Below the pieces are notes generated by a model. The model made no database searches and had not been told where the DNA came from. It saw only the letters and a list, made by a program, of their open reading frames with translations. Of a DNA stretch of 64,000 nt, positions 19,155-44,348 are shown one piece after another; position 1 is the stretch's first letter, and each line of letters begins with the position of its first letter. Made by a program: the position numbers and the translations under genes. This DNA comes from Gammaproteobacteria bacterium (lineage in GTDB: Bacteria; Pseudomonadota; Gammaproteobacteria; JAABTG01), in the NCBI GenBank assembly GCA_034522055.1, contig JAXHLS010000002.1:3429549-3493548 (forward strand). Direction: 5' to 3'.

Positions 19155-19156
19155 GG

Positions 19157-21919: not shown

Positions 21920-22030
21920 GATCCGTGCCGTGGCCCAGAAACCAGACGCCGTGCCGCAGGGGTTTTCCCTTCCACGGTTCCCTGTCGATGGGGACGATGG
22001 CGCCACCGTTTCACGACCAATGACAATGAC

Positions 22031-22513
22031 ATGTTGATCCCCTCTCCCATGCGGGTTGGACTGAAGCTCCTCGGGCTATTGGTCCTCGGGCTTAGGGTCC
22101 TCGGGCTTATGGTCCTCGGCACTCCGGTCTGGGCGGGCGAGGTGCTGAGCATCGAGGCCTTCACCACGAGCGAGCGGGCGATCAGCGGTGCGGATCAGGG
22201 GCGCCTTCGATCAGCCACCGTCACGATCTACACCGTCGATGGCCTCGGGCGATTCGAATCGGGGTTATCCGCAGATCTCCCAGCGGATCCGGAGGCCGCG
22301 AAGGCGGAGGCGCTCCGGCGCATCCAGCAGCTCGATGACACCCGGATGGCGCCGGCCAGAAGTGCCGCCATGGGCCTGGCCAGGGCCGTGCAGTATGGCG
22401 TCGATTGTTATCCCGCCGTCGTCTTTGATGGTAGCGCCGTGATCTATGGCGTGACGGATCTCGAAGATGCGCTCGAGCGCTACGCATTCTGGCGTGAGGG
22501 CCAGGCGCGATGA
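22031..22513 (+). CDS. ICE periplasmic protein, TIGR03757 family
   Basis: 160 residues. The long hydrophobic N-terminus (LGLLVLGLRVLGLMVLG) includes a 7-codon repeat of the Val-Leu-Gly-Leu type, unusually repetitive at the DNA level. The mature domain (VQYGVDCYPAVVFDGSAVIYGVTDL) has the thioredoxin-like look of TIGR03757/DUF1525, whose members are often compared with TrbC/TraW-type proteins. The ATGA overlap with the next gene indicates coupling. A 110-bp gap separates it from the ATPase gene. Confidence 0.75.
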   Translation: MLIPSPMRVGLKLLGLLVLGLRVLGLMVLGTPVWAGEVLSIEAFTTSERAISGADQGRLRSATVTIYTVDGLGRFESGLSADLPADPEAAKAEALRRIQQLDDTRMAPARSAAMGLARAVQYGVDCYPAVVFDGSAVIYGVTDLEDALERYAFWREGQAR

Positions 22514-23622
22514 GGCGTTACCGCATCACACCGCTCCTCCTGGTCCTGCTGCTGCAGGTGCCGCTGATGACTCATGCGGCGACAATCACCACTCCTGGAA
22601 TCGTCGCCCAGACCACGGCCGGGGCGCTGACCTGCATGCGCTGGATGCCGGTGGGCCTGTGCTTCTGGCTGCGCTGCGGCTGGCGGGGCTGCCGCGTGCG
22701 CACTTCGCTCAAGGTCGGGCACTACAACCCGGATCTGGTGGTCAGCGCCTATAACGAATTGGGTGGCAACCCCTGGGCGGAGATCCGCGCGTCGCTGGGG
22801 CTTGCCCAGAAAGCCGCGGCCACCGGGCTCCTGGGATCATTGCTGCCGGTCCCCATCGACAGTGCGGGCAATCGCACGGAGGGGCGTTCCGAGCCGCGAG
22901 GCCACAAGAACATGGTGTTTCGGGAGACCGATGCCATCGGCCATCCCATGGGGTCCCTGGCCGGTGTGGCGGCTGGCGTGGGTCTGCTGTGTCAGTCGCA
23001 GACCACACCCTTCTTCCCGTACTTCCAATCGGCCCTCGATATCTTGTCCTGGCGGCAGGAGGTGCCGGAGATCTTCTATCCGGCGAGCTGGATCCCCGGC
23101 CTGCGCGAAATCGGCAGCTGGCCCCTGCAGACGTGGGGCAACGTTCATCCGCGCACCGGCTGGACGACCCAGGCGGAGGAGCCCAAAGCCGCGGCCATCA
23201 ATGCCCAAAGGGCCGGCGACATCGTCACCCGGGCCGCCCAGCCCCATGTCTACGTGCCACTCTCCGGCAGTTCCTACATGCATAACGATGTCACCCGGAT
23301 CCTCGACCGCTGGGTCGATGACGGATTCGGGAACCTGCTTAACAGGTGGTTCGCATTCTTCTCAGGCCAGAAGGTCTGGCCGCCCGGTCCGCTGATGGAG
23401 AAGAACCATCGCACGGGAACCTGGCAGATGCTCGTCCCGAGGCCTGAGTCGAGCTGCAGGGTGTTCGGCACCAATGATCTCAACAGTATCGGCGGTTGGG
23501 GCGGTGGGCGGGTGGACGCCGCCGGCGACTACGCCTGGAACCTCTGGCGCCCCTATAAATGCTGCCGCCGCCGGGGTCAGTGGTTCCTGTTCGATATCGA
23601 CTGGTTCGCTTATCCGCCATGA
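22510..23622 (+). CDS. ICE protein, TIGR03756 (TraU-like) family
   Basis: 370 residues with a signal peptide (ITPLLLVLLLQVPLMTHAA) and many cysteines in the mature part (ALTCMRWMPVGLCFWLRCG). It then carries VKVGHYNPDLVVSAYNE-type TraU features (KVGHYNPDLVV). TraU-family proteins are periplasmic, disulfide-rich factors needed for DNA transfer and mating-pair stabilisation in F-like systems. The start overlaps the previous stop (ATGA), and the end overlaps the next start in the same way. Confidence 0.8.
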   Translation: MRRYRITPLLLVLLLQVPLMTHAATITTPGIVAQTTAGALTCMRWMPVGLCFWLRCGWRGCRVRTSLKVGHYNPDLVVSAYNELGGNPWAEIRASLGLAQKAAATGLLGSLLPVPIDSAGNRTEGRSEPRGHKNMVFRETDAIGHPMGSLAGVAAGVGLLCQSQTTPFFPYFQSALDILSWRQEVPEIFYPASWIPGLREIGSWPLQTWGNVHPRTGWTTQAEEPKAAAINAQRAGDIVTRAAQPHVYVPLSGSSYMHNDVTRILDRWVDDGFGNLLNRWFAFFSGQKVWPPGPLMEKNHRTGTWQMLVPRPESSCRVFGTNDLNSIGGWGGGRVDAAGDYAWNLWRPYKCCRRRGQWFLFDIDWFAYPP

Positions 23623-24998
23623 TCGCTCACCCAGCACAGCACTGCGAGATCACAACCGGCCGTGGACGACATCGCCCCCTGGCCGCCGGGCTGCTCACCT
23701 TCTTGCTGGCAAGTCCCTCGGTGCATGCCGCGCAAGGGCCCACGGAAGACGGCCTTTGGTACTACGAGATCGGCGGGGCAGAGCCGGTGTCCGCCCCGGC
23801 GAATCCCTCGGTGGTCTCGGTCACCCTGGGCGGCTCGGCACAACTCGGGCTCGGCTACAGCTGCGGCAAGTTCGATCCGGTGCGCGCGGTGACCCATTCC
23901 CTGAACGAGATCAAGTCCGGGGCGGACGACATGATGAGCGCCATGACGGCGGCCGCGTCTTCGGCTATTGCAGCGCTGCCGGCGCTGATCCTGCAGCGCG
24001 CCAATCCCGGGCTCTACGATCTGTTCCAGAACGCGCTGCTGAAGGCCGAAGAGACCATGAAGCTCGCTACCAAATCTTGCGAGCAGATGGAGGCCGAAAT
24101 CGCCCAGGGCAAGAACCCCTACGCGGATCTCATCACGCTCTCCAAGGGCAATGACTGGAAGGTGCAGATGGGGATCGGCGGCAACGACGCTGTCACCGCG
24201 AAAGACTCGGTGGAGGCGTCCAACGGCGATAACGGTGTGCCGTGGATCGGTGGCCAGGCCGGTGGAGCGGGGCAGCCGACCCTGCGCTTCACCGGAGACA
24301 TCGTCCAGGCGGGCTACAACATCAACATGAACCGGCCGATTACCTCGACGGCCGCGGTGCCGGCCGCTTCCGCCACGCGGCTCTCCGAGATCTGGCCGAC
24401 GCCGGCGGCGGCGCGGATCTGGGTGGTCGATGTGGTGGGCGAGAACATCGTCACCACCTGCGACACCTGCCGCAAGGACAGCATTCCAGGCACCGGCCTG
24501 CTGCCCAAGCTCCACAGCGAGGCGGCCGGCGTGACCGTCGAGTTGCAAAACCTGGTCAGCGGTGCAGCCCCGCCCACCCTCGCCAACCTCGAACGGATCA
24601 CGGCCCCGGGCGTTGCCGTGACGCGTCAGGTCATCGAGGCCATCCGCGAGATGCCGGCCACCGAGCAGGGGCTTATCATCGGCCGGCTGGTCGCCGAGGT
24701 AAGCCAAGCGCGCACCGTGGAGAAGGCCCTGTACGCCCGGCGGCTACTGCTGTCGGGCCGCCAGGTGCCGGAGGTGTACGCCACCGAGGTCGCACGCCAG
24801 CATGCCGATACGGCGATTACCGAACTCGACAAGGAGATCGAGAGCCTCCTGTTCGAAACGCGGGTGCGCCGCGAGGTGGTCTCCGACACCCTGATCGTGC
24901 TGTTGCAACGGGCGGCCGCGCGTCGCCAGGCCTCTCTCGATGTCCCCCAGACTCATCCCACCGATCCGAGGCCGCTGATCCATGGCCGCGTGCAGTAG
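23619..24998 (+). CDS. ICE protein, TIGR03755 (TraH-like) family
   Basis: 459 residues from the ATG at 23619, which overlaps the previous TGA. After a signal peptide (LAAGLLTFLLASPSVHAA) the mature protein has ALPALILQRANPGLYDLFQN and KSCEQMEAEIAQGKNPYADL, recognisable for TIGR03755/DUF1528 (PFL_4711-like) and comparable with TraH. It is likely periplasmic and acts in pilus extension and mating-pair stabilisation. The 3' end overlaps the next gene by 17 bp. Confidence 0.8.
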   Translation: MIAHPAQHCEITTGRGRHRPLAAGLLTFLLASPSVHAAQGPTEDGLWYYEIGGAEPVSAPANPSVVSVTLGGSAQLGLGYSCGKFDPVRAVTHSLNEIKSGADDMMSAMTAAASSAIAALPALILQRANPGLYDLFQNALLKAEETMKLATKSCEQMEAEIAQGKNPYADLITLSKGNDWKVQMGIGGNDAVTAKDSVEASNGDNGVPWIGGQAGGAGQPTLRFTGDIVQAGYNINMNRPITSTAAVPAASATRLSEIWPTPAAARIWVVDVVGENIVTTCDTCRKDSIPGTGLLPKLHSEAAGVTVELQNLVSGAAPPTLANLERITAPGVAVTRQVIEAIREMPATEQGLIIGRLVAEVSQARTVEKALYARRLLLSGRQVPEVYATEVARQHADTAITELDKEIESLLFETRVRREVVSDTLIVLLQRAAARRQASLDVPQTHPTDPRPLIHGRVQ

Positions 24999-25365
24999 AT
25001 CCCTGCCGATCTGCCGGCGCTGGTTCTTCACGCTGTCGCTGGTCGCGCTCGCCGGCGTGATCGCCGTCGGCCTGCTGTTGTGGCAGGCGGTGGGGCTCGG
25101 TTCGCTGGCGGTCGTGTCGGAGCGGGTAGGGCAGGTGAAACCGTACCTCGGCTGGCTGCGCCTCGCGCTGATCACCCTGCTTGCCCTCGCCTGGCCGCGG
25201 TTGCCCGCACTGTGGTGGGGCAGCCGCGATGGGGCCGAAAGCCAACGGTCACGCTGGATGGCACTGCGCTGGCGCGTCGTCGGCTGGCTGTTCGTCATCG
25301 AGCTCGTCCTCGGACAGAATCTGATGGGGCGCTTTCTCGGCACGATCCCGGGCTCCTTCCCATGA
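24982..25365 (+). CDS. Small ICE inner-membrane protein
   Basis: 127 residues with three hydrophobic segments: about 13-34 (FFTLSLVALAGVIAVGLLLW), 54-73 (LRLALITLLALAWPRLPAL) and 92-110. It sits between the TraH-like and TraG-like genes, where PFGI-1-type ICEs carry an unnamed membrane protein. The role is unknown, probably structural. It overlaps both neighbours by a few bases. Confidence 0.65.
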   Translation: MAACSRSLPICRRWFFTLSLVALAGVIAVGLLLWQAVGLGSLAVVSERVGQVKPYLGWLRLALITLLALAWPRLPALWWGSRDGAESQRSRWMALRWRVVGWLFVIELVLGQNLMGRFLGTIPGSFP

Positions 25366-26927
25366 GTGTCGACAGCTACCTCGAGCTCTTCACGACCCTG
25401 TTCGGCTGGGCCTTCTACGGCGTGCTGTGGGACGTGCTGGTCGGCACCGGGATTGTCTACCTGCCATTCCTCGGGATCCTCATCGATAACTGGCGCGATC
25501 CCGCCGAGGGTGGGCAATTCGGTACGGCCACCGGACTCTCACTGCGGCGCATGGAGATCGAGCTCTTCCTGGCGCTGCTCGTCGTGGTGCTGGCCGGACA
25601 GCCGGCGGCGCTCACCCCCTTGAATGCGGGCACCCTGAGCTACGAGCCGCAGCCCACGCTCACCGATCCCACGCCGGCGACCGCCACGGTGGCGGCGCCG
25701 CAGAGCACCTATGGCGCGACCGGATTCAACGGATCGCCAGTGACCGTGAACATCCCGGTCTGGTGGTATGCCGTGCTGGCCATGAGTTCGGGCTTCAATC
25801 ACGCCGTCGTCGAAGGCCTGCCCGCGGCGAGCGACCTGCGCACCTACGAGCAACAGGCACGGCTCGCCACCATCGCGGACCCGCGCCTGCGCCAGGAGAC
25901 CAGCGATTTCTTCAGTGAGTGCTACGTGCCGGCCCGCTCCAAGTATCAGGCCCAGCGGCCCGCGACGGCCGCAGTCGCCGGGATACTGACGACCTACGGC
26001 GAGGACGATCCGGACTGGATGGGCTCGCACGTCTATCGCGACACCGCCGGCTACTACGACACCCTGCGCCCGACGAAACAGATCCCAGGGTGGACCTACA
26101 ACCCGGCCCGCGACACCGAGTACGACCCCGCAACGCCGCCCACCTGGGGCAAGCCGACCTGCAAGGAGTGGTGGGAGGACGGCGCCCAGGGCCTGCGCGA
26201 AAAACTGATCGTCGAGGCCGATGCGACCTCGGCGGGGTTCTCCGGTCTGGTCGTCGCCGTCGCCCCCATCCTGGCCAGCGAACAGCAGGAAGATGCTGTC
26301 GTCCGGACGGTGCTCAACAACGCGCCCCCGTCCTGGTCGAGCAACGAACTCGTCGCCGGCAACACGGCCAGCACCGGATGGCTCGCCACGGCCGAGAATA
26401 TCGTCAAAGGTGGACTCACCACTGGCGGCGTGATCACCGCCTCGGCGCTCTTCTCGGTGACCATGACCGCCGTGCTGCAGGCGCTACCCATGGTCCAGGC
26501 GCTGATGCTACTCGGTGTCTACGCCTTGCTTCCCATGATCGTCGTCCTCTCCCGCTATTCGCTCTCCATGATGGCGGTCGGGGCGATGGCCATCTTCACG
26601 ATTAAATTCTGGAGCGTGCTCTGGTACCTGGCCATGTGGGTGGACCAGAATCTGATCCAGTCCATGTATCCGGACGTGGACGTGTTCCTGCAGATCTTCG
26701 CCAACCCAGGCGAGCACGACGCCAAGCGCATGCTGCTCAATATGATCACGACCAGCCTCTATCTGGGGCTGCCGTTGCTCTGGAGCGGGATGATGGCGTG
26801 GGTGGGGGTGAAGGTCGGGCGATCGATAACGAGCGCCTCAGCACCCCTCACACAAACTGGCGAGGATGCCGGACGGCGGGGCGGCGCTATGGCAAAAGCG
26901 ACAGTCGGCAAAGGAATGCGTCGCTAG
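25362..26927 (+). CDS. ICE TraG-like inner-membrane protein
   Basis: 521 residues from the ATG at 25362 (ATGA overlap with the previous stop). Multiple membrane helices are visible: about 13-40, 68-88, 375-400, 405-425 and 470-490. The large periplasmic loop has NIPVWWYAVLAMSSGFNHAV, typical of the TraG N-terminal domain (PFL_4713-like). TraG-type proteins act in pilus assembly and mating-pair stabilisation. It is the last gene of the plus-strand conjugation operon, and no relaxase gene follows, unlike in complete relatives. Confidence 0.8.
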   Translation: MSVDSYLELFTTLFGWAFYGVLWDVLVGTGIVYLPFLGILIDNWRDPAEGGQFGTATGLSLRRMEIELFLALLVVVLAGQPAALTPLNAGTLSYEPQPTLTDPTPATATVAAPQSTYGATGFNGSPVTVNIPVWWYAVLAMSSGFNHAVVEGLPAASDLRTYEQQARLATIADPRLRQETSDFFSECYVPARSKYQAQRPATAAVAGILTTYGEDDPDWMGSHVYRDTAGYYDTLRPTKQIPGWTYNPARDTEYDPATPPTWGKPTCKEWWEDGAQGLREKLIVEADATSAGFSGLVVAVAPILASEQQEDAVVRTVLNNAPPSWSSNELVAGNTASTGWLATAENIVKGGLTTGGVITASALFSVTMTAVLQALPMVQALMLLGVYALLPMIVVLSRYSLSMMAVGAMAIFTIKFWSVLWYLAMWVDQNLIQSMYPDVDVFLQIFANPGEHDAKRMLLNMITTSLYLGLPLLWSGMMAWVGVKVGRSITSASAPLTQTGEDAGRRGGAMAKATVGKGMRR

Positions 26928-31089: not shown

Positions 31090-31311
31090 AAACCCAGAGT
31101 TGAGCGAGACTTAAGAGAGCGATAGATTCGCATCCGCGGCGAAGGCGAGCTAAATCGCCTGCTTTGCATCCGCTTCGAAGAGTCTGGATGTCACCATCCT
31201 GGGATATTGCATAAGCTTGCTGGAATGCGCTCTCCGGTCAGATGCAGGTGTACAGCAAAACGCATCGCGGCGCCAGGAAAAGAGCAAGAGAAAGGACAGG
31301 AAGGGGGTCTC

Positions 31312-32577
31312 ATGAAAGCCGATTCGGCCAAGGCCTCCGCGAGCCGCGGATTTTATTGGCCTATGGCTTTAACCAGAGCGAAGTACGCGGCGGTAGAGCT
31401 GTGCTGCGGCATGGGTGGGATTGGTATCGGACTCGCAGCGGCGAAATACAAGGTCGTGAAGGCGTACGACTCGTGGTCTGCCGCTACCGCGATCTACAAC
31501 CACAACGCTCCGGAACCGGTCGCGAGCGTATGCAACCTCGTAACCGAAGAAGGCCTGGCCACGGTCAGGCGCGACCGCCGCAAGCTCGGTGACGTCGACC
31601 TTCTTGCCGCTGGTCCTCCCTGCAAGGGGTTCAGCCAAATCCGCAACGGCCATCACGATCGGCCCAACCCCCACAACCGCGTGCTACTGGCGATGCCGCA
31701 GTACGTGGCGCTCTTTCGGCCCCGGCTCGTACTGATCGAGAATGTACCCGACTTGGCACGGCACGATGGTGGTGAAACGCTACGCCTCCTCCTCGAGAAC
31801 CTGGATCGCCCAGGTCCGCGGGGGCTCCGCTATCGGGTCGAGTACGGCGTCTACGATGCTGCTCTCTACGGAACACCTCAGGCCCGCCGGAGACTTCTGA
31901 TCCTCGCGGTGCGGCACGGATCCGGTGAAGAGCATCTACCGGATAACTCAGCCGATCTAACAGCGCTGTACGCAAGCCTGCGGCACGGTGGAGAGATTCC
32001 TGCGGAGCTTGAGAGCTATGCCGAATGCCTGGCGGACCCAGACGACCTTTCTATGACCTCCGGGCGCCAAGCGCTGTCCGATCTCCCGGTACTGGGGGCG
32101 GGCGAGCCAGAGTTAGTGCGCTCGTATGCGACCCCCCCCCGCAACGCATACCAGCGAGCGATGCGTGCCGGGTCGTCTGACCCTCTCACCAACACGCGCA
32201 CGCCCGCCGTTCGCAAGGAGACGATACAGCGCTTGAAGATGATCCCCCCGGGGGGCTGTGCTCGAGACATCCCGAGGCACAAGCTAAATGGCCTCTCTCG
32301 GCGGTATGATTCTGCCTATCGCCGCCTTCACCCTGACGCGCCGTCGACGGCGTTGTCGACCAAGTATGACTGCGTCTACCACTTCAGCGAACACCGTTCA
32401 CTCTCGGTCCGAGAGTATGCGCGGCTTCAAGGCATTCCCGACCGGATTTCATTTCCAGAAGAACTCGCCTGCCGCAGGTTCGCGTATGAGATGATCGGCA
32501 ACTCCGTTCCGCCCTTCCTCATACACGGCGTCCTAATGGAGATCGCCGAATCCACTCGGCGGAGGAAGGCAGGATGA
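31312..32577 (+). CDS. druM: DruM: DNA cytosine-5 methyltransferase of a Druantia type II system
   Basis: 421 residues from the ATG at 31312, preceded by AGGAAGGGGGT; in-frame upstream ATGs lack a ribosome site. C5-methyltransferase motifs occur in order: I (ELCCGMGGIGIGL, near 28), IV with the catalytic Cys (AAGPPCKGFSQ, near 100), VI (ENV, near 143), VIII (QARRRLL) and X (YEMIGNSVPP). It would methylate host DNA at a specific site so that the partner proteins spare it. It heads a five-gene operon in which every junction overlaps. The following helicase with fused DUF1998 and two unique proteins identifies the system as Druantia type II. Confidence 0.85.
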   Translation: MKADSAKASASRGFYWPMALTRAKYAAVELCCGMGGIGIGLAAAKYKVVKAYDSWSAATAIYNHNAPEPVASVCNLVTEEGLATVRRDRRKLGDVDLLAAGPPCKGFSQIRNGHHDRPNPHNRVLLAMPQYVALFRPRLVLIENVPDLARHDGGETLRLLLENLDRPGPRGLRYRVEYGVYDAALYGTPQARRRLLILAVRHGSGEEHLPDNSADLTALYASLRHGGEIPAELESYAECLADPDDLSMTSGRQALSDLPVLGAGEPELVRSYATPPRNAYQRAMRAGSSDPLTNTRTPAVRKETIQRLKMIPPGGCARDIPRHKLNGLSRRYDSAYRRLHPDAPSTALSTKYDCVYHFSEHRSLSVREYARLQGIPDRISFPEELACRRFAYEMIGNSVPPFLIHGVLMEIAESTRRRKAG

Positions 32578-33413
32578 GCCGCGGGTTCCGATTTTCTCCT
32601 GGTGGCCAGGCGACGCTGCTGTGGCTCGATGAGCTTCTGGAAGACGCCTACGGGGCCCCCGAAGCGCTGCTTGGAAATCACGCCGATCCACTCGACGAAG
32701 CGGTCTATATTATCCTCAGCTTCCAAACGGATCTGGCACGCTTTCAAGAGACGTGGCGGGAACTTCGCGCTGCGTTCCCGAGCTGGGAGAATGTGGAGCG
32801 CGCAAGCAGGGCTGATGTTGCCCGCGCCCTGCGGGCCGGTGGCCTCCACCAACAGAAAGCACGTACGATCAAAGCTCTGCTACAAGCAGTGCGGCACCAG
32901 TTTGGGGAGCTTTCGCTCACCCAGTTGGCCGGCATGAGCAATGAGAGCGCGGAACGCATTCTCACTCGGCTTACCGGTCTATCCTGGAAGGGGGCTCGCT
33001 GCGTCCTGATGTATAGCCTGGACCGCCCGGTGTTTCCCGTGGATGGGAACACCTTCAGAATCTTGCAGCGCGCTGGCGTCATCCCGCAGACTGCAGTCTA
33101 TCGACACAGGTCATTGCACGACAGGCTGCAGCACGCCGTCCCGGAAGGCCGCCGGAGGCCCTTCCACGTCAACCTGGTCGTCCACGGCCAGCGCTCGTGC
33201 CTCCCGATCGCTCCCCAGTGCGATAGTTGCCCTGCGGCGGCAGTCTGCAAGAAGCGCGGGGTACGCTCGGGAAGTCACGAGCAGACCGGTCTGCTGCGAG
33301 ATTGGGCCAATGGCGAGGAGGGGAAGCAGGAGCAGGTGCGAGCTGAGGTGACTGGACGGAATAGGTCCGAACCACCACGGTTCGAGGGCCAATACGCTGC
33401 TGCAATGGGGTGA
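32574..33413 (+). CDS. Endonuclease III-like [4Fe-4S] DNA glycosylase in the Druantia operon
   Basis: 279 residues; the start overlaps the methylase stop (ATGA). Helix-hairpin-helix/GPD features are intact: LTGLSWKGARCVL with the lyase Lys near 137, and PVDGNTFRIL with the catalytic Asp near 155. The iron-sulfur loop follows the exact C-x6-C-x2-C-x5-C pattern in residues ~208-225. Such enzymes excise damaged or mismatched bases. Next to a C5 methylase the obvious role is repair of T:G mismatches from deaminated 5-methylcytosine, as Vsr and Mig proteins do. The alternative is a direct nuclease role in defence. This gene is not part of the standard Druantia II set. The ~55-residue C-terminal tail is polar. 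Confidence 0.85.
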   Translation: MSRGFRFSPGGQATLLWLDELLEDAYGAPEALLGNHADPLDEAVYIILSFQTDLARFQETWRELRAAFPSWENVERASRADVARALRAGGLHQQKARTIKALLQAVRHQFGELSLTQLAGMSNESAERILTRLTGLSWKGARCVLMYSLDRPVFPVDGNTFRILQRAGVIPQTAVYRHRSLHDRLQHAVPEGRRRPFHVNLVVHGQRSCLPIAPQCDSCPAAAVCKKRGVRSGSHEQTGLLRDWANGEEGKQEQVRAEVTGRNRSEPPRFEGQYAAAMG

Positions 33414-36241
33414 AACGCATGCGGGATCTTCTGCGTGCGATCCTCTCCGTTCTTCGTGCGTTGTTGGATTCCAAGCGCGAGCGACCGCCGGAATCGGACC
33501 GAGGGGGAGAGCAACGAGATGCCGCTGGGGACGGTGGTGCCGATTCCTCCGCCAGCGGCGAGACGGGACCGAAGCAGAACACACCTTCAGAGCAGTCAAG
33601 CAACGACGAAGAAGCGGAGAAGGCGGAGGAATCCGGCGCCGATCAGAGCCACAAGGGCGCCCCTCTACTCCAGCAAGGCGAGGAAAGCGATGCGTCATCT
33701 CTCGATGCTGGTGAAGTTGGCCGGCAGGATGACACCGGTGCGGGATCCGATGCCCCGCAGCCTTCGGATGCAGAACAACCACTCGATGGCGCTCCCCGCG
33801 GCGACAAGACTGGCCGTGAAGGGATCCATGCAAATCCCCAAACAGGCTCTCGCGTCCTGGACCCAAGAGGCAACGGCGAGGAAACCTCTGAGCGCCAAGA
33901 GCATCCCCCTGAGTTGGTGCCTCAGGAGGATCCAACGGGAGCAGGGGGGAGGCCACAGGCTGCCGCAGTTTCCGGCAATTCTGAGGCCGAAGGCCATCCG
34001 CCCTCCGGCAAGGTGGCATCGACGGGCACGCAGAGATTTGCCGGCGGTGCAATCGAGACGCACGGAGAGAGCCAGAAGCCGCGGCCTCACACGGAGGAAC
34101 GGCTGAGCGCTGCGGGCAATGACGTGAGGCCGTGTCCAAGATGCGGCGTCACCTGCTTGTCTCACGAGGTCGAGGAGGTATTCGGTTACCGGACGATGAA
34201 GTGGACGGCCGCCGGAAGCGAGTCCGTGGCCGTTCACCGTCAGAGCTATTGCAGGGCGTGCCGTGCGGAGCACGCAGCTGAAATGCGGAACCGGAAGGAG
34301 CCAAGCGAAGGCCCTCAAGAATCGGATGCTTCATCGGCCGGCGCCGGTGCCGAGTTCGAGGACCTCGGCCCGAACAAAGAATCCGACTCCCATCTTCAGT
34401 CGCGAGATGGCGTCGCAAGTGAACGACAAAAGGAAGGACAGGCTGCGGATTTGAGCCGCTCTTCACCTGCCGTACCACATGGTGAGGCCGCTGGCCGAGT
34501 TGATGCGGGGCATCCGGGAGCTGCAGCTGCCCCAGACCTCGGCGACGGGACCGGTGCAGTGGGGCAGGAGGTGGGCGCGGACAGCGATGAATTTTCCCTC
34601 TCGCCCCGTGCCGCCCCCCCGGATTCCCCCGACCGGAGCGACCAAAAGGTTTCCGGAGCGCGGCAGGCTTCTAACAACGCTTCGAGCGAGAACCGACACG
34701 ATGGCGGCGAGACAGGAGAAACGGAGGAAGAATCTGCTGGTGCTGTGAACTTCGCAGGAGCCGGTGACGCCCAGGAGAGCTCTATGAGCGTAGGGGCACA
34801 TGAAGAGAACTCCCCGAGTGTGCCGCCCGTTCGCACCCCGGGTAGGCGGAAACGTTCCCCCCGGTACCGCGCGCCTGGAGGAGGACGGCCGCCCGCCCGG
34901 CCATCGCCTTTGCGCCGTTCGGAACCGAATGCCGGTCGAGACACTACGCTTCGGAGTCGTGCGGCCACGATCGAGGTACGCGTGCTTTTTCAACGCGGCG
35001 GATACTGCTCGGTGACCCTGCTTCCGAAGCGACCGCCTGACTTGCCTGAGGAGCTGCTCGTTGAAGGCGGCGCCGGGAATGTAGCGCTGCTCGCCCTTGA
35101 GGACGACTGGTATCAAGACATTGCCCTGGACAACCTCGGCGACGTTCTTCGCGAGGGCCTGGTGCTAGCGGATCCGGGCACCGCCCAGGAATGGGTGTTG
35201 TCAGGCCGTGAAATATTTGTCCTTGCCTCTGGCGCCACCCATCGAGGCTTCGTGTCGTGCGCTCGACTCGGGCTGGGGCGCGACCATGTCGTGCTCTGTG
35301 CTACGCGCCGATTGCCGGAGGTCGAGGAGGCATTACGCGAAGCAGGATGCGCCAGCTGGACACGACTCGCAGAAGACGATGGCGTGCCCAGAGGTTGGAC
35401 AGTAATTCGTGGCGTCGCCCCGGCCAAGGCTGTTTCACTACGGGGCGATGAGGACATCCTCAACATTTTGCGGCCGCTGCCAGATGTCGAGATCGCGCTC
35501 GAAGGCGGGATTCGTCTTGCATACAACTCGTGGTTGCACGGTTACCCGCCGTCGATCCGCGTCTACGGCGACCCCGAACATACGGAAGTAGTTTTGATCG
35601 ACGGCCAGGAAGCCGTCCGATCTGAGAACCAGGGCTATACCTCGGCCGGGTGGGCCAAGCTGGGCGAGCACCAGGTGTGGTGCAGCAACACATCAGCGTC
35701 GTACTCGATCGTTGCGAGCGACACCGACTGGAGGTTCTGGCCCGCCTATTCGTTCGCTCCTGGTGGCAATCCAGCGGGGGAGTTTTCGTTCTGCGGTCCG
35801 CTCGTGCGTCCTGTGAATCGCGCGAGGAATCCCGACAGCGAGGCGGGAGACGTCCAGCCAATTCAGGCTCCACCGAGCAATCCGGTTCTTATTGGAGCCA
35901 GACCTGGCGAGGTGTTCATCGCAGATCGTCGGCGCGATGTAAGAGGCGCTCGCTGCCTTTGTCTTCCGCCATTCGCCCCGGTCTGGGCGCTTCCGGCGCA
36001 ACCTCTCCATTGCGACAAGCAGGTCAGTCGGGTCCTCTTGATAGGGAACGCCACGGGCGTGCGGGAGCTAAGCGGACACCGCCGCAGCATGCGGCGAGGA
36101 GGCGACATCGAGCGCTGGTTCCGTCTGATCCTTGATGCAAGTAGGAAGGGGCTCGCGGTCCAGCCGCGGGACGCGAGCACGGATCAGCTTTGGCAGAGTT
36201 ACAAGACGGCTGCACGCAATCTCAGAAGGAGGTTGCGATGA
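33410..36241 (+). CDS. druF: DruF-like large protein with acidic low-complexity N-terminal half
   Basis: 943 residues; GTG at 33410 overlaps the previous stop, and ATG at 33419 is the other option. Residues ~25-480 are low-complexity, rich in Glu, Asp, Gly, Ser and Pro, and probably disordered. A zinc-finger-like island at ~240-290 interrupts it (PCPRCGVTC ... YCRACRAEH, two CxxC pairs). The C-terminal ~430 residues look globular (VRVLFQRGGYCSVTLLPKRP, LSGREIFVLASG). Its position between methylase and helicase genes, with DruG after it, supports DruF. I find no enzymatic motif. The disordered half is unusually long and may be a linker or interaction surface. Confidence 0.7.
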   Translation: MKRMRDLLRAILSVLRALLDSKRERPPESDRGGEQRDAAGDGGADSSASGETGPKQNTPSEQSSNDEEAEKAEESGADQSHKGAPLLQQGEESDASSLDAGEVGRQDDTGAGSDAPQPSDAEQPLDGAPRGDKTGREGIHANPQTGSRVLDPRGNGEETSERQEHPPELVPQEDPTGAGGRPQAAAVSGNSEAEGHPPSGKVASTGTQRFAGGAIETHGESQKPRPHTEERLSAAGNDVRPCPRCGVTCLSHEVEEVFGYRTMKWTAAGSESVAVHRQSYCRACRAEHAAEMRNRKEPSEGPQESDASSAGAGAEFEDLGPNKESDSHLQSRDGVASERQKEGQAADLSRSSPAVPHGEAAGRVDAGHPGAAAAPDLGDGTGAVGQEVGADSDEFSLSPRAAPPDSPDRSDQKVSGARQASNNASSENRHDGGETGETEEESAGAVNFAGAGDAQESSMSVGAHEENSPSVPPVRTPGRRKRSPRYRAPGGGRPPARPSPLRRSEPNAGRDTTLRSRAATIEVRVLFQRGGYCSVTLLPKRPPDLPEELLVEGGAGNVALLALEDDWYQDIALDNLGDVLREGLVLADPGTAQEWVLSGREIFVLASGATHRGFVSCARLGLGRDHVVLCATRRLPEVEEALREAGCASWTRLAEDDGVPRGWTVIRGVAPAKAVSLRGDEDILNILRPLPDVEIALEGGIRLAYNSWLHGYPPSIRVYGDPEHTEVVLIDGQEAVRSENQGYTSAGWAKLGEHQVWCSNTSASYSIVASDTDWRFWPAYSFAPGGNPAGEFSFCGPLVRPVNRARNPDSEAGDVQPIQAPPSNPVLIGARPGEVFIADRRRDVRGARCLCLPPFAPVWALPAQPLHCDKQVSRVLLIGNATGVRELSGHRRSMRRGGDIERWFRLILDASRKGLAVQPRDASTDQLWQSYKTAARNLRRRLR

Positions 36242-37182
36242 GCCTCAATCACCTCTTGCTCTGGCTTTCTGCGAAAGGAGAAGGCTCCTGGGCGCAGTTC
36301 CGGACTGCCGTCGAAGTCCTCCACGTGGATGCGGAGGACGGATCACAGGAGGACGACGACGAAGGCGAGCGCCAAGCGGTAGTGACTTCAGATCTGCCTG
36401 TCTACCAGCGCGCGCGCTTTGCTCTACAGCGTCTCGCTCACGTCGAGTTCTTCGCCAGCGAGGCAGATCAAGGCTGGCGAGTCGTACCGCCAGCGATTTC
36501 AGTGCGCCCGAGTTGCCACAGCGAAGGAGTCCTTTCTGGGGCCCGCACGCCAAAGCTCCTTCGGGCACTCGGAAGCACGCAGGGCATTGATGTGATCACT
36601 GAGACCGGGCCGGGCGTCCCGGATCGGATTCTTGTGCGCAGCGATTCCAGCCACGTGATGCTCTCGGCCGCCCGGCAACTCGGGCTCCTCGTCCAGCCAG
36701 ACGCACCGGCGGCCATACTTTCGGCGCTACCGACGGTTCAAGATCGAACGTCGTGGTTCCCAGCATCCATCCCCGAAACGCCGGGGTGGAGAGTGCACCG
36801 ATTCTCGCCCTCGAGCCTCGGCTGGAACGAGACGACCGGAACAGAAGCGATGGCGGCCAGCACCGGCTTGTTTCGGTTCGTGATGAAGCACCAGCGCTTC
36901 TACTACCTGCGCTGGAGAGGACGGACCTACAGCGTACCCGTCCAGGTGGGAAAGTACGCCGTCATGCGGCGCCGGCGCGGAGTCTTGGCCTATGACGGCG
37001 AGGTGCAGTGCGTCTCCATGCCAGCCGCCTGCAGGCCTCCCCTTCTTATCGAACGAGCCCTTGTGCTCTGCTCTGGTTTCCTGCCTCGTTTCGATCCATC
37101 GTCGGGGCGCCTTGTATACGCCGCCGTTCCTCCAGACATCGCGCGTCTCTCCGCGCAGCTACTCCACCAGGAGATGCGATGA
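36238..37182 (+). CDS. druG: DruG-like protein of the Druantia operon
   Basis: 314 residues from the ATG at 36238, which overlaps the druF stop (ATGA). The first part contains LNHLLLWLSAKGEGSWAQFR, then an acidic stretch, then a helix-turn-helix-like YQRARFALQRLAHVEFFA. The rest is mixed with conserved-looking HRFSPSSLGW and QRFYYLRWRGRTYSVP. No catalytic motif is visible. Winged-helix-like features and the fixed position before the helicase gene fit DruG, whose molecular function is not established. It ends in an overlap with the DruE start. Confidence 0.7.
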   Translation: MSLNHLLLWLSAKGEGSWAQFRTAVEVLHVDAEDGSQEDDDEGERQAVVTSDLPVYQRARFALQRLAHVEFFASEADQGWRVVPPAISVRPSCHSEGVLSGARTPKLLRALGSTQGIDVITETGPGVPDRILVRSDSSHVMLSAARQLGLLVQPDAPAAILSALPTVQDRTSWFPASIPETPGWRVHRFSPSSLGWNETTGTEAMAASTGLFRFVMKHQRFYYLRWRGRTYSVPVQVGKYAVMRRRRGVLAYDGEVQCVSMPAACRPPLLIERALVLCSGFLPRFDPSSGRLVYAAVPPDIARLSAQLLHQEMR

Positions 37183-40100
37183 GCAACCCAATCCGATTCT
37201 TTGAGAACCTGCGGGATATGTACCTGAGGTACCTCGATAGCCCCTTTGAGATCCGATACGGCGACCTGACGGCGGAGCGCAGTCAGCTCCTCGACCAGGA
37301 CGGCAGGATCTACCGCCACCCCTTGCTCGAGCCCGTGCCGGCCTACCGGTCGTCAAACCAGTCCTTCGGGCAAGCCGCGCAGTCCTTGCTTGGCGGGCGC
37401 TGGCAGGAGAACGAGGTCACCGGCGCGGCGGACTTCATCTCGCAGGGCCTTTTTTCGTCCAATCTCGCGCTGCACCAGCATCAGCGCGACGTTTTCGAAG
37501 AGGTCGTTGTCAACGGCAACGACACGGTCGTTACGACCGGGACGGGTTCCGGGAAGACCGAGTGCTTCTTGCTCCCTGTCGTCGCGTCAATCGTTCGCGA
37601 GTCTGCGTCCTGGACCGCTCCAGGCCAGCCACCGGCACAGTGGGATTGGTGGAACCACTTTACGATGCAAGGAACTCGGCGTCGCTGGGCGCCGCGCGTG
37701 TCACAGCGAGAGCACGAGACTCGGCCTGCCGCCATCCGCGCACTCATCCTGTATCCGCTAAACGCGCTGGTCGAGGATCAGCTCGCCCGGCTACGTGAAG
37801 CGCTCGACGGCACCGGAGCCCGAGCATGGCTGCAGGCGAACCGGGGCGGTAATCGACTCTACTTTGGCCGCTACACGGGCCGAACGCCAGTTTCGGGCGA
37901 GCGAACATCGTCCAATACCGGCCGCCTTCGTGACGAGCTTCGGAGCATCCACCAAGACGCCCAAGCTGTGGCGGGCAGTCCCGCCGAGCGCTTCTTCCAG
38001 AGCATGGACGGCGCGGAGATGTGGTCACGGTGGGACATGCAGGACAGTCCGCCCGATATCCTCATCACAAACTACTCGATGCTGAACATCATGCTCATGC
38101 GAGCGATCGAGTCGACGATCTTTGATCAGACGCGCGCGTGGCTCGAAGAATCGTCCGATCGCGTTTTCCACCTCGTTGTGGACGAGCTCCACACATACCG
38201 GGGAACGCCGGGGACTGAGGTTGCGTATCTTCTTCGCGCTCTACTCGATCGCTTGGGCCTCGCGCCAAACTCGGATCAACTCAGGATTATCTCGTCGAGC
38301 GCTTCTCTCGAGAGTGGAACAACTGGCCTGCAGTACTTGGAGCAGTTCTTCGGCCGCGACCGCAACCGATTCCGCGTCATCGGGGGCTCGTCTTACATCG
38401 TTCCACCCAATGCTGCGGCGCCAGAGAGCCTCTCGCTCCACGCTGCTGCTCTTGAAACCTTCGGGCAGGCGATTGCCGGATCCGGTTCTGGAGGACTACC
38501 GCAGGCTAGCACCGCTCTTCTGGGAGCCATTGGAGCATCCACTCCTCCACCTGGCGCATCCGTGGAAGAGAATCTCAATGCCGCGCTCGAGCACATTCAG
38601 GCTGCCGATGCTTTGCGCTTGGGCTCCACGATCAACCAACAGATCGTGCCCATGTCACCGCAGGATCTCGCCCCAGTTCTGTTTCCTGGCGCTCCACCGC
38701 AGCAGGCATTCAACGCTGTCGATGGCTTACTCACGGCTCTCTCCCACGCTAGAAACCCTTCAGGCCTTGCGCCTCTGCCCATGCGCGTCCACTTAATGCT
38801 CCGAAACCTGCAGGGGCTATGGGTATGTACTTCGCCGGCATGCAGTCAGGTGCCTGCTCGAGCAGCCCAATGTCCCACGGGATCGCTGCACTACGTGCCG
38901 ACGCTTACTTGCCAGTGCGGATCGCGCGTCCTGGAACTCCTGTACTGCGAACCTTGCGGGGAGGTCTACTTCGGGGGCTACCGGCGCGAGACCGATAATC
39001 CGAACGAATGGTACCTGAGCCCTGATCGGCCCAACCTTGAGGCCGCACCGGATCTGTCGTCGTTTGACCGTGACTACGAACAGTATGCCGTCTTCTGGCC
39101 TGCGGCTCCGGGGCAGACACCTTCATCCGCGCAGTGGACCCAAGATGGAATCGGCCGGCGCTGGCGCCAGGCAAGCTTTGATCCCGCAGATGGGCGGGTT
39201 GGCCTCGGGCTGCAGCCGGGCCAAGTGCATGGCTATCTGTACTTTGTGCCGTCGGTGCATGGAGCAAACCCACCGGACGCTCCTGCAGGTCGCGAGGCTT
39301 TCCCGTCGATTTGCCCGAGGTGTGACGCCGATTGGCGCCGCCGAGACGTCATCAAGTCGCCAATCCGAACACAGCGAACCGGTTTTCAGAAGATCGCGCA
39401 GGTTCTCTCTGACACCTTGCTTCGCGACCTCGCCGAACCTCCCTTGTCGAGCAATCGAAAGCTCGTGGTGTTCTCCGACAGCCGGCAGGATGCGGCGAAG
39501 CTGTCTGCGGGCATGCGCTTCTCCCACTACAGGGATGCGCTCCGCCAAGTCTTGGTTACCTCGCTCCGCCAACAGGGGACGGGGCCACAGGCATTCGCTT
39601 CGCAATGCCAGGGCCAGCAACTTTCTCCACAAGATCAGGCCGCGGCAGTGGCGTTCTCGAAAGCTCATTCTACGGATGCGACGACCCTCGCGATGGGGTT
39701 GAATCAGTACACTGCTTCTCTCCCGTGTGCTGCCTATCACGGAATGTCGAATCAGCAGGCAGCGCAGCAGATCATTCAGCGCGCGACCTCGGGCCCGTTT
39801 CGATTCACACAGGTCGCAACCGAGGTCGCAGAGTGCATGCTCGCCCAGGGCATGAACCCGGCCGGCTACACGCAAGAGGTACTGTGGACGAACCCGCAGG
39901 ATCGCGAGGGAAGCTGGCGAGATCTGCATGCATGGCCAAATGACGCTCGACCGTCAGCGAAGCCGCAAGGGCAGCTCACGCAACCCCAACAGGCGCACTT
40001 GCAGAGGCTCCAGGACCGCTCTCTCGTAGAGCTGATGGACATCGTCTTCGCGTCCGGGCGGCGCAGCCTAGAGTCGCTGCTGTTGGCCATTCCGACTGTC

Positions 40101-42752
40101 GATCGGCTCATGTTCCAAGCCCCGAGCACGCTCGTTCAGGAGGGCGCCGATGGGGCGATTTTCCTGTTCGGAACGAGGAAGCGCCTCTCCACCCATTCTT
40201 GCTCGTCGTTGAACACACCACCCGGCTACGTGTCAGCATACTTGGCTGCGATCGCCCAACAAGCTGGACTTAATCCGGACACGTACAGGAACGACGTTCT
40301 CGACTTCCTTGCGGCTGCTGGCGTCTTAAACACGGCCCACCACTACCTGAACGCAACAGCGCTATGCCTGGAGGGGCCATCTCAGACCTGCTTTGAGTGC
40401 ACGCAGTGCCGGCGCACCCACATGAACCCTTCGGGCGGCATCTGCTCGGATTGCTCCGCGCCGCTGGGGACGGGCCAACCTACGGCGACCGCTCAGCTAT
40501 CGCCGGACTACTACTCGTACCTCGCAACGCAAGCCGGAAGCATCTTTCGGCTCAACTGCGAGGAGCTTACCGGGCAAACGAACAAGTCGGATGCTCGAAA
40601 ACGGCAACGTCTGTTCCAAGACGTCTGTTTGCCAGCACCGCAAGAGAACCCGCTCGCCGATCCGGTCGATCTCTTGAGCGTGACCACCACAATGGAGGCC
40701 GGCGTCGACATCGGAACTCTTGTTGCGGTGATGATGGCCAACATGCCTCCGATGCGGTTCAACTACCAGCAGCGAGTTGGCCGGGCCGGCCGTCGCGGTT
40801 CGGGTATGTCGGTTGCCTTGACGCTGTGCCGCGGCAGAAGTCACGACGACTACTACTTCCAGCGGCCGCAACGAATCACGTCGGACGCACCGCCACAGCC
40901 GTACGTGGACATGCGGCGCGACAGCATCATCAAGCGCGTGCTGGCAAAAGAGCTCCTTCGCAAGGCATTTGCCGCGCTGAATCTCTTTACCGCTGGGGGA
41001 GGCGAGAGCGTCCACGGTGAATTTGGCCGCGCCGCAAATTGGAATCAACCCGCAACTCAGCCGCCCGCAGGAGCTCCCCCGAATATTACAACCGCCCAAC
41101 TGGTGGATGGCTGGCTGCAGCAGAATCCAACCGAGGTGGCCCGCGTCACCGATGTCTTGCTCTCGTACAGCGATCCCTCACTGCAGGCGAAGCGACAAGA
41201 TCTGATCAACTACTGCATCCAACAGATGGTTGCAGAAGTGACCGCCGCGTCTACCGACCCGAGGTATCCGCAGGACACCCTGAGTGAGCGTTTGGCGAAC
41301 GCCGGTATCCTGCCGATGTTCGGGTTTCCAACACGCACCCGATACCTCTTCCACGATAGGCCCACACGGGCTTATCCGTGGCCCCCCGACGACGTTGTTG
41401 ATCGCGAGCTTGATATCGCGATCAGTCAATTTGCCCCTGGGGCCGAGACGGTAAAGGACGGGCTTATTCACACGGCCGTAGGCGTCGTTGACTACCGCCC
41501 GCAGGGTAACAGCCCAGTGGAAGCTGCCGGCCCCCTCGGACCACCCATTGCGGTCGGCGTGTGCTCTGCCTGCCAGGCGGTGGACGGAAACCAACCACCA
41601 GCGCCGAGTTGCCCGGTGTGCGGTGCCACTGCCCAGCAAGAACCCGGCTATAGGATCACCAACATCTCCCAGCCCGCAGGATTTCGAACCTGGTACGGGC
41701 GCAGCCGTGATTTCGATGGAACATTCGAGTGGACGCCGCGCGCGTCGCGGCCAAAGATGGGCGCTTCTCTCCTCCATGGGACTCATCGAGCAAACTTTGA
41801 GGTCTGGGCAGACCGGGAGACCGTCTATGTCATCAACGACAACGATGGTTGTCTCTTTGACTTCGAGAAACTGGCGCAGGGAGAAACATGGGTTACCAGA
41901 GACTCGCTCGCCAACAACGGTGTGGACAACCCGCCAATTGATTCTGGGGCCGGTGCCGATTCACGTGCGTTGGGCTCGATCAAATCTACCGACGTGATGG
42001 TCCTAGGGATCGCTAACTGGCCTACCGGCATTCGTAAATCGCCCGCAGGTAACGAAGGGCTGGGGGTTCGGGCCGCGCTGTACTCATTTGGCTTTCTTGC
42101 TCGGCGCGCCGCTGCGGACCGCCTCGATGTACATGAGCAAGAGATCAAAGTCGGGCTCAGAGTCCTCCGAGACGCGGTTGGCGACATCATCGGGCAGATT
42201 TTTCTGTCAGACAGTTTGGAGAACGGAGCCGGGTACGCGTCGCTGCTGGGCGACCCGGCTGAGACAGAAGCACTCCTACAATACATCGTTGGTCAGTCCA
42301 GTCCGACGTTTTATCAGTTTCTGGTGGGATCGCAGCACGCAGGCACCGGACCGACGGGGTGTACTACATCGTGCCCGGATTGCCTTCGCGACTTCAGCAA
42401 TCTGCCCTATCACAGTATCCTCGACTGGCGGCTAGGTCTTGATCTCGCGCGGCTCGCACTTGATCCGGCGGCCCCAATCGACTTTTCGGTCGGCTACTGG
42501 CAGGGAGTCGATGTGGCCGCGGCCGGGCCGTACTTCGCCGCACTTCCTCCCGGATGGCAGCAGGTGACATTCGGTGGATTGCAGGCGGGCCGGCGGGGAA
42601 GCCAAGCCGAGATCATCACGCATCCTCTTTGGGACTGCGACCCGAATCGTTATGGGCCCAAGCTCGCCAACGCCTATGCGCAGGCGGGGGCAGCAGGATG
42701 CCAGCAGGTGAGCTTCAAGTCCGTCTTCGAAATACTGAGGCGGCCATTCTGA
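37179..42752 (+). CDS. druE: DruE: giant DEAD/DEAH-box helicase with C-terminal DUF1998
   Basis: 1857 residues from the ATG at 37179 (ATGA overlap with druG). SF2 helicase motifs: Walker A TGTGSGKTE near 120, Ia region YPLNALVEDQ, DELH box (LVVDELHTYRGT) near 334, and motif VI QQRVGRAGRRGSG near 1195. A cysteine-rich DUF1998 region (CTTSCPDCLRDF) lies near 1727, with further CxxC pairs near 590-610, 1130 and 1510. DruE is the one protein common to all Druantia types and is thought to unwind or translocate on invading DNA. Length and order are as expected. No frameshift is seen, so the system appears complete. Confidence 0.9.
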   Translation: MSNPIRFFENLRDMYLRYLDSPFEIRYGDLTAERSQLLDQDGRIYRHPLLEPVPAYRSSNQSFGQAAQSLLGGRWQENEVTGAADFISQGLFSSNLALHQHQRDVFEEVVVNGNDTVVTTGTGSGKTECFLLPVVASIVRESASWTAPGQPPAQWDWWNHFTMQGTRRRWAPRVSQREHETRPAAIRALILYPLNALVEDQLARLREALDGTGARAWLQANRGGNRLYFGRYTGRTPVSGERTSSNTGRLRDELRSIHQDAQAVAGSPAERFFQSMDGAEMWSRWDMQDSPPDILITNYSMLNIMLMRAIESTIFDQTRAWLEESSDRVFHLVVDELHTYRGTPGTEVAYLLRALLDRLGLAPNSDQLRIISSSASLESGTTGLQYLEQFFGRDRNRFRVIGGSSYIVPPNAAAPESLSLHAAALETFGQAIAGSGSGGLPQASTALLGAIGASTPPPGASVEENLNAALEHIQAADALRLGSTINQQIVPMSPQDLAPVLFPGAPPQQAFNAVDGLLTALSHARNPSGLAPLPMRVHLMLRNLQGLWVCTSPACSQVPARAAQCPTGSLHYVPTLTCQCGSRVLELLYCEPCGEVYFGGYRRETDNPNEWYLSPDRPNLEAAPDLSSFDRDYEQYAVFWPAAPGQTPSSAQWTQDGIGRRWRQASFDPADGRVGLGLQPGQVHGYLYFVPSVHGANPPDAPAGREAFPSICPRCDADWRRRDVIKSPIRTQRTGFQKIAQVLSDTLLRDLAEPPLSSNRKLVVFSDSRQDAAKLSAGMRFSHYRDALRQVLVTSLRQQGTGPQAFASQCQGQQLSPQDQAAAVAFSKAHSTDATTLAMGLNQYTASLPCAAYHGMSNQQAAQQIIQRATSGPFRFTQVATEVAECMLAQGMNPAGYTQEVLWTNPQDREGSWRDLHAWPNDARPSAKPQGQLTQPQQAHLQRLQDRSLVELMDIVFASGRRSLESLLLAIPTVDRLMFQAPSTLVQEGADGAIFLFGTRKRLSTHSCSSLNTPPGYVSAYLAAIAQQAGLNPDTYRNDVLDFLAAAGVLNTAHHYLNATALCLEGPSQTCFECTQCRRTHMNPSGGICSDCSAPLGTGQPTATAQLSPDYYSYLATQAGSIFRLNCEELTGQTNKSDARKRQRLFQDVCLPAPQENPLADPVDLLSVTTTMEAGVDIGTLVAVMMANMPPMRFNYQQRVGRAGRRGSGMSVALTLCRGRSHDDYYFQRPQRITSDAPPQPYVDMRRDSIIKRVLAKELLRKAFAALNLFTAGGGESVHGEFGRAANWNQPATQPPAGAPPNITTAQLVDGWLQQNPTEVARVTDVLLSYSDPSLQAKRQDLINYCIQQMVAEVTAASTDPRYPQDTLSERLANAGILPMFGFPTRTRYLFHDRPTRAYPWPPDDVVDRELDIAISQFAPGAETVKDGLIHTAVGVVDYRPQGNSPVEAAGPLGPPIAVGVCSACQAVDGNQPPAPSCPVCGATAQQEPGYRITNISQPAGFRTWYGRSRDFDGTFEWTPRASRPKMGASLLHGTHRANFEVWADRETVYVINDNDGCLFDFEKLAQGETWVTRDSLANNGVDNPPIDSGAGADSRALGSIKSTDVMVLGIANWPTGIRKSPAGNEGLGVRAALYSFGFLARRAAADRLDVHEQEIKVGLRVLRDAVGDIIGQIFLSDSLENGAGYASLLGDPAETEALLQYIVGQSSPTFYQFLVGSQHAGTGPTGCTTSCPDCLRDFSNLPYHSILDWRLGLDLARLALDPAAPIDFSVGYWQGVDVAAAGPYFAALPPGWQQVTFGGLQAGRRGSQAEIITHPLWDCDPNRYGPKLANAYAQAGAAGCQQVSFKSVFEILRRPF

Positions 42753-43383: not shown

Positions 43384-44263
43384 ATGCAGCCCGGCTTTTT
43401 CGATCTGGATAACCGTTATCAGGAACTGGAGAAACTCGGGGACCCATTGCCGACAATCGAGCGGGTAGTCGACTGGGAAAGTTTCCGCCCGATGCTGGAA
43501 AAGATTCACCAGAAGAAGCGCAAGAGCAATGCCGGGCGCAAGCCCTACGATGTCGTGCTGATGTTCAAGGTCCTGGTGCTGCAGCACCTGTACAACCTGG
43601 CCGACGAACAGACCGAATATCAGATCCGGGATCGCTATTCCTTCTGCCGGTTCCTCGGCCTGACGCCGGAAGGTCGGGTTCCGGATGCCCGCACCATCTG
43701 GCTGTTCCGGGAACGGCTCAAAGAGCTGGAACTGGTGGAAACGCTCTTCGCACAGCTGTCCAAGCAGATAGAGGGATCGGGATACATCGCGCGACGGGGC
43801 CAAATCGTGGACGCGAGCATGGTGGCGGCGCCGCGTCAGCGCAATCGCCGGGAAGAGAATGCCCTGGTCAAGGAAGGCAAGACGCCGGAAGCGTGGCAGG
43901 GCCAGCCCGCCAAGCTGCGGCAGAAGGTTGTCGAGGCCCGCTGGACGAAGAAGCACGGGAAGACCTACTACGGCTACAAGAACCACGTGGGCATCGACAA
44001 TATCAAGGCCAACCATTGGCGAGCCAAGGTTCGTGTACGGGTTGAGCATATCTTTGCTACCCAAACTGCGATGGGCGGGATGCTGGTACGCACTATTGGA
44101 TTGGCCCGAGCGGGTGAAGATTGGCATGATGAATATCGTCTATAACATTCGGCGACTGGCCTACCTGGAGACGCGGCGTGCATTGAGCAAGCCCATAGAG
44201 GACATCACAATCTCGGTTCGGCATGGCACGAACGGGAATATCCCGGTATTGCCCTTTCCGTAA
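43384..44263 (+). pseudogene. IS5-family transposase with internal deletion and frameshift
   Basis: The N-terminal ~210 residues are well preserved (NRYQELEKLGDPLPTIERVV, then SNAGRKPYDVVLMFKVLVLQ, then GQIVDASMVAAPRQRN with a catalytic Asp). After YGYKNHVGIDNIK the middle of the catalytic domain is missing. The reading resumes with VRVRVEHIFATQTAMGGM, then shifts frame near 44100 to finish as IGMMNIVYNIRRLAYLETR. The enzyme cannot be functional. It sits between the exported-protein gene and the restriction-enzyme remnant. Confidence 0.85.
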
Positions 44264-44348
44264 TCGCGACATGATATTCGTCCAAGGTGGCGAATGTCCG
44301 TCCTTTAGCCGCGAGATGCAAAAGTAGGGATTAATAGAGGTTCCCATC

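Follow-up and report, generated by a model that had tools for sequence, protein, structure and literature searches.

The window, i.e. the whole 64,000 nucleotide stretch of DNA that was analyzed, carries an operon of five genes, DruM, a glycosylase, DruF, DruL and DruE, with the glycosylase gene in second place. The genes, at positions of the window, are as follows.

31207–32577, forward strand: DruM, C5-cytosine DNA methyltransferase (PF00145, E-value = 9.8e-43)
32574–33413, forward strand: Nth-like HhH-GPD [4Fe-4S] DNA glycosylase, 279 aa, proposed T:G guard of DruM sites
33410–36241, forward strand: DruF, GTG start (PADLOC DruF2/DruF4, E-values = 3.8e-10 and 4.6e-9; homologs in sister operons)
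36238–37182, forward strand: DruL, hallmark of PADLOC type IV (DruL4 PDLC00057, E-value = 2.7e-28)
37179–42752, forward strand: DruE, SF2 (YprA-family) helicase (PADLOC DruE4 PDLC00051, 1761 bits)

All four junctions overlap. The glycosylase gene begins within the stop of the methylase gene (ATGA at 32574), and DruF within that of the glycosylase gene (GTGA at 33410), the two overlaps that a sequence-only reading of this DNA had pointed out. The ATG of DruL overlaps the DruF stop (ATGA at 36238) and the ATG of DruE the DruL stop (ATGA at 37179). A promoter and terminator scan gave nothing useful.

The start of DruM is uncertain; similarity begins near position 31378. The protein matches the PADLOC DruM model (PDLC00033, E-value = 7.3e-57) and the generic MTase_II model (PDLC03234, E-value = 5.3e-63), keeps the C5 motifs GPPCKGFS, ENV, QARRR and GNSVP, and is the only PF00145 match in its genome. 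DruE has DruE4 as its best PADLOC DruE match, and DruE homologs are found in at least 80 genome loci. No PADLOC DruG model is matched in the operon; DruL occupies that place. Type IV is defined by the PADLOC authors as DruE-DruF-DruL, without DruM or DruG (PMC8565338). The operon is type IV-like with an added DruM, since the gene at the druG position is DruL and DruE is closest to DruE4. Druantia type II proper was considered and rejected: DruM is present but the gene at the druG position is DruL, with no DruG match. Judged by gene content, the system is a variant of type IV that bears a methyltransferase and so mixes types II and IV. Literature outside subscription papers yielded no description of a glycosylase or of a separate Vsr gene as a Druantia part, in keeping with the sequence-only reading, which had not counted the gene as a standard component. 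Mentions of Vsr in the YprA and CoCoNuT papers are of domains fused to helicases or effectors.

Conjugation genes (TraC_F_IV, DUF1525 and TraG_N) are found upstream of the operon at 19151–26927, thus the operon probably rides on an integrative conjugative element. The segment 28254–29997 contains a DUF4145 gene weakly similar to PD-T7-4, and a gene for a SocA/Panacea-type antitoxin with a small gene after it; it is a probable second defense or toxin-antitoxin module. The region on the 3′ side of DruE (43384–45285) holds a transposase gene (DUF772/DDE) and a minus-strand RES-domain gene whose product is a probable toxin. No long open reading frame of PD-(D/E)XK type is seen directly after DruE in the window. 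A PD-(D/E)XK (PF12705) nuclease gene is found at that place in three loci of one clade from the survey described below (L039, 15568–16746; L068, 15554–16804; L041, 15466–16590).

The glycosylase displays all the endonuclease III hallmarks that the sequence-only reading had listed:

32988–32990, forward strand: codon of K139, position of the endonuclease III lyase lysine
33042–33044, forward strand: codon of D157, the catalytic aspartate
33198–33248, forward strand: iron-sulfur cluster loop C209-x6-C216-x2-C219-x5-C225

K139 lies within GLSWKG and D157 within FPVDGN. HhH-GPD is the only Pfam domain matched (PF00730, 39.5 bits against a gathering score of 26.2); with this domain, the catalytic Asp and the HhH fold of the AF2 model, the protein belongs to the HhH-GPD superfamily. 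The Asp and the four Cys are invariant across the aligned family members. The Lys position is Asn in one member, that of locus L017, where the Asp is kept; this one MAG sequence hints that base excision, rather than the lyase step, may be the conserved activity. In the two closest Nth pairs dN is 0.17 against dS of 0.93 and 1.09, and the gene is under purifying selection with a dN/dS of about 0.16–0.18. The gene is real; its homologs and its conservation exclude chance.

Profile searches give as best solved relatives D. radiodurans EndoIII-1 (E-value = 5.9e-44, for a variant of that enzyme) and EndoIII-3 (2.9e-32). The AF2 model, with a mean pLDDT of 78.5 and residues about 232–279 predicted to be disordered, aligns best to EndoIII-3 (Z = 24.9, 2.6 Å, 228 residues), and also to EndoIII-1 (Z = 24.1), ROS1 (22.1) and MIG (21.0). 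Curated family models are not reached. The Endonuclease III equivalog TIGR01083 gives 60.6 bits against a cut-off of 211.7, and NF053634 (DR2438-type monofunctional glycosylase), still the best-scoring NCBIfam model, gives 106.9 against 400. The gene lies beside a C5 methyltransferase gene, as is characteristic of Mig/MIG, but membership in that family was rejected, as K139 stands where MIG has Tyr and the score on the PADLOC Mig model PDLC03398 is low (33.7 against 533 bits). Because the endonuclease III and DR2438 cut-offs are missed and the MIG Tyr is absent, the protein represents an unnamed HhH-GPD subfamily in the EndoIII-1/ROS1 neighborhood. DrEndoIII1 is mostly a monofunctional glycosylase with low activity on the usual EndoIII substrates, having been assayed on thymine glycol and 5-hydroxycytosine, and DrEndoIII3 shows no detectable activity on the usual substrates (PMC9268735). 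Thus the EndoIII-1/-3 branch is short of a known substrate.

The gene might be an ordinary endonuclease III for oxidized pyrimidines that lies in a defense island by chance. The EndoIII fold and the Lys-Asp pair are as expected of such an enzyme, and the intercalating positions hold the canonical residues, Gln51 and Leu91. However, the best curated equivalog scores far below its cut-off, and the genome has one other homolog of the glycosylase, which is not in the operon and whose motif resembles that of canonical EndoIII. Nor would this account explain the substitution by Vsr described below, and the operon position is conserved. It is very improbable.

Another candidate is a 5-methylcytosine (5mC) glycosylase like ROS1/DME. 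The window clade matches ROS1 (E-value = 5.6e-22) better than canonical EndoIII (1.4e-19) or MIG (8e-14), and has a Lys-Asp dyad as in ROS1 (PMC10573277). A bacterial enzyme related to the ancestral stock of ROS1/DEMETER would then work with a methyltransferase within the operon and remove the methyl mark from phage DNA that had acquired it, restricting 5mC-bearing phage, or erase misplaced marks. But it would excise the marks of its own operon partner DruM, the Vsr and MIG-like substitutes (below) point to T:G, and the RRM and other parts of ROS1 are absent from the window protein, which does not have the ROS1/DME architecture. A 5mC glycosylase is thus very improbable here.

To survey other Druantia loci, an alignment built from four DruE proteins of type IV was run against 84,980 species genomes. 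From 159 DruE loci found, 80 were kept, each with flanks of at most 10 kb per side, and glycosylase orthologs were sought in the loci by tblastn and profiles. Orthologs adjoin eight other DruE loci, from several phyla, among the 86 DruE loci examined. The sequence-only reading had asked how often Nth-like genes sit between druM and druF elsewhere; the gene is evidently not peculiar to this genome. In five loci the ortholog (58–61% identity) is situated directly 3′ of a DruM ortholog (61–68%). By assignment, the MAGs that carry these loci belong to Gemmatimonadota (L014), Planctomycetota (L017), Betaproteobacteria (L039), Rhodothermota (L048) and Deltaproteobacteria/Myxococcota (L082). As the hosts are draft MAGs, misbinning could affect an individual case, but it could not account for a gene order that recurs. 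L013 (a Bacillota MAG) has an intact ortholog 5′ of DruF with no adjacent methyltransferase gene, the remaining methyltransferase being far away, and in L068 the genes for a methyltransferase and for a more remote Nth (40%) lie next to each other on the opposite strand. In L018 and L064 the contigs are broken where DruM and the glycosylase are expected, which predicts that these genes lie elsewhere in that genome, at the end of another contig. They are found there in both cases: contig 98 of genome G555 has the methyltransferase (68%) and Nth (59%), and contig 2 of genome G541 has the methyltransferase (62%) and, where it breaks off, the N-terminus of Nth.

The gene is nevertheless rare, as the window copy is the sole match among 398 genomes of the phylum at an E-value of 1e-20. 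Viral contigs searched with the window glycosylase and then with the 9-member alignment A2 show no relatives. A tblastn search of plasmids with the window glycosylase shows distant EndoIII homologs only, and no C5 methyltransferase is present in the tables of the two Halobaculum and one Azospirillum plasmid neighborhoods opened. DruE in IMG/VR is limited to four loci, without guards, a guard being defined here as an HhH-GPD glycosylase or a Vsr in the locus.

Two loci nested in the window clade, L015 and L016, show what becomes of the gene when no methyltransferase gene is in the locus. Both glycosylase copies are ruined, with stops, a missing N-terminus and a changed catalytic Asp (PVG and PLG for PVD). 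This decay, and the arrangements of L068 and of L031 (described below), show that the glycosylase follows the methyltransferase and not the helicase. Pairwise identities of methyltransferase and Nth over seven systems are correlated (r = 0.91, permutation p = 0.0008), to which shared descent contributes.

The sequence-only reading had offered two hypotheses, repair of T:G mismatches as a partner of DruM, analogous to Vsr or Mig, and action on modified or deaminated bases of phage DNA in the attack itself, as an effector of Druantia. For the latter there is precedent in Brig1 and Brig3, glycosylases that defend against phages with modified bases (PMC13160076), but the Brig enzymes derive from uracil-DNA glycosylases and have another fold. 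The gene moreover tracks the methyltransferase and not the DruF-DruL-DruE core: it is absent from the full-flank Druantia loci (defined below) that have no methyltransferase, and it decays where the methyltransferase is missing. Linkage, decay and the substitutions that follow disfavor attack on phage bases, leaving it a very small probability, while the context strongly supports repair of T:G as DruM partner.

All loci were searched with profiles for C5 methyltransferase, Nth and Vsr, and Vsr was confirmed by PF03852 in a sample; the HhH-GPD of L077 scored below threshold and was included by hand after Pfam confirmation. A C5 methyltransferase is present in 39 of the 86 DruE loci. Ten of these have an HhH-GPD glycosylase, 17 a Vsr, none has both and 12 have neither. 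With full flanks required (5.5 kb or more upstream and 2.5 kb or more downstream, 51 loci), methyltransferase and guard occur together in 20 loci, the methyltransferase only in 8, a guard without methyltransferase in 0 and neither in 23 (Fisher p = 4e-8, a value that counts non-independent loci, as the DruE tree gives only five independent methyltransferase contrasts). Two to five of these contrasts agree and none opposes, with a median p of 0.25 in an underpowered comparison. Thus, as locus counts are not independent, the case rests on qualitative substitutions and not on the p-value.

Substitution by Vsr takes more than one form. In many Vsr loci the methyltransferase gene opens the operon and Vsr is situated about 1 kb after DruE; in others methyltransferase and Vsr are together on one side of DruF-DruL-DruE. 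A Vsr gene on the same strand, about 1 kb or slightly more 3′ of DruE, is seen in L029, L032, L035, L040, L042, L043, L050, L052, L074 and L104. Genome G480, from outside the survey set, shows the gene order methyltransferase-DruF-DruL-DruE-Vsr. In two Acidobacteriota loci a gene with a NO VEIN C-terminal domain (PF13020) lies beside Vsr (L033, 17284–18132; L020, 11608–12444).

A MIG-like glycosylase is the other substitute. The DruE proteins of L082, L039 and L017 are close to that of L031 (Nitrospira), and in L031 the methyltransferase-Nth cassette is replaced by a 552 aa fusion of a different methyltransferase with an HhH-GPD domain (5173–6828, forward strand). Aligned with the L077 domain, this HhH-GPD has as its best solved relative MIG (1KEA, labeled 'possible G-T mismatches repair enzyme'; E-value = 1.4e-45), and both domains have Tyr at the Lys position, as in MIG. 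In L077 (Nitrosovibrio) the Tyr-type glycosylase (17109–17795, forward strand) lies beside a methyltransferase gene (15808–17043, reverse strand) near the Druantia operon.

The pattern is local to the cassette. Exclusivity of Nth and Vsr at the level of whole genomes was rejected, as several Nth-bearing genomes carry Vsr elsewhere. No Vsr is found in the window genome, and PF03852 is not matched by the window glycosylase. No other mismatch enzyme is seen among some methyltransferase neighbors in the guard-less loci L026, L034 and L041, nor in the long methyltransferase of L005.

Pairing with a methyltransferase and loss with it are also expected of a restriction partner, and glycosylase restriction enzymes exist (PMC10273834). 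The glycosylase would then be the R half of a base-excision restriction system with DruM, excising at unmethylated phage sites like R.PabI. However, the Vsr and MIG-like replacements are repair enzymes, and substitution by Vsr would go unexplained. The window protein is a 279 aa HhH-GPD without an added recognition domain, and the operon already has DruE, DruF and DruL as candidate effectors. Base-excision restriction is very unlikely. Among the structures listed as matches of the AF2 model are those of HhH-GPD enzymes.

Vsr nicks at T:G and MIG excises T from T:G, their common job being deaminated 5mC. The window glycosylase most likely does the same job, being an HhH-GPD enzyme that occupies their slot and goes with the methyltransferase; by analogy it would be the functional counterpart of Vsr (with Dcm) and Mig (with the C5 methyltransferase of its plasmid), drawn from another HhH-GPD branch. 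Most probably, then, it is a genome guard that removes T from the T:G mismatches left by deamination of DruM's 5mC, and the Vsr/Mig analogy of the sequence-only reading is supported by replacement, by travel with the methyltransferase and by decay without it. The window genome, with one C5 methyltransferase and no Vsr, is consistent with a guard. Against it, the window clade is closer to EndoIII-1/-3 and ROS1 than to MIG and has Lys, not Tyr, its nearest characterized relative, DrEndoIII1, was assayed on thymine glycol and 5-hydroxycytosine, and in 12 methyltransferase-bearing loci the searched flanks show no guard.

The proposed sequence of events begins with DruM, which would methylate host cytosines at C5 and so mark the genome as self in this form of Druantia. 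The 5mC would deaminate to thymine, leaving DruM sites with T:G mismatches. The mismatched T would be flipped out and excised by the HhH-GPD enzyme with D157 as catalytic residue, K139 could contribute AP-lyase cleavage, and base-excision repair of the usual kind would restore C:G. On this proposal the window glycosylase would have T:G activity and DruM would produce 5mC, the glycosylase would play no direct role in killing phage and protection would not depend on it, and its loss should make C-to-T mutations more frequent at DruM sites.

The hazard of 5mC turning into T has been described, as has the fact that vsr is usually linked to genes for cytosine methyltransferases (PMC12907096). The mutation cost of 5mC self-marking is seldom considered for phage-defense systems, and this defense operon appears to bring its own remedy. 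Seemingly three enzyme types have come to fill the guard slot, namely Vsr, a glycosylase resembling MIG and one of the EndoIII/ROS1 branch. The substrate of an orphan EndoIII-like branch thereby becomes directly testable. For annotation of Druantia loci the suggested rule is that a methyltransferase usually implies a guard, and a gene locked into a defense operon need not be an effector.

Compared with known systems, the operon shares DruE4, DruF and DruL with PADLOC type IV, which by definition has no DruM (PMC8565338), and DruM with type II; neither type includes a glycosylase or Vsr in its definition, whereas the window operon has a glycosylase. D. radiodurans EndoIII-1 and EndoIII-3 (4UNF, 4UOB) are nearest to the window glycosylase by sequence and fold, but EndoIII-1 has Arg61 and Tyr100 where the window protein has Gln51 and Leu91 (PMC9268735). 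ROS1/DEMETER share the Lys-Asp dyad and similarity over the catalytic and Fe-S regions; however, ROS1 has a large, discontinuous glycosylase domain and an RRM, whereas the window protein is a single small domain of 279 aa. MIG (Mig.Mth, plasmid pFV1, 1KEA) is likewise an HhH-GPD enzyme with a C-terminal [4Fe-4S] loop, encoded near a C5 methyltransferase gene, but has Tyr in place of the catalytic-position Lys and 22% identity to the window protein. Vsr, the partner of Dcm, has the same genomic role as companion of a C5 methyltransferase but an unrelated fold, being a PD-(D/E)xK nickase where the window enzyme is a glycosylase.
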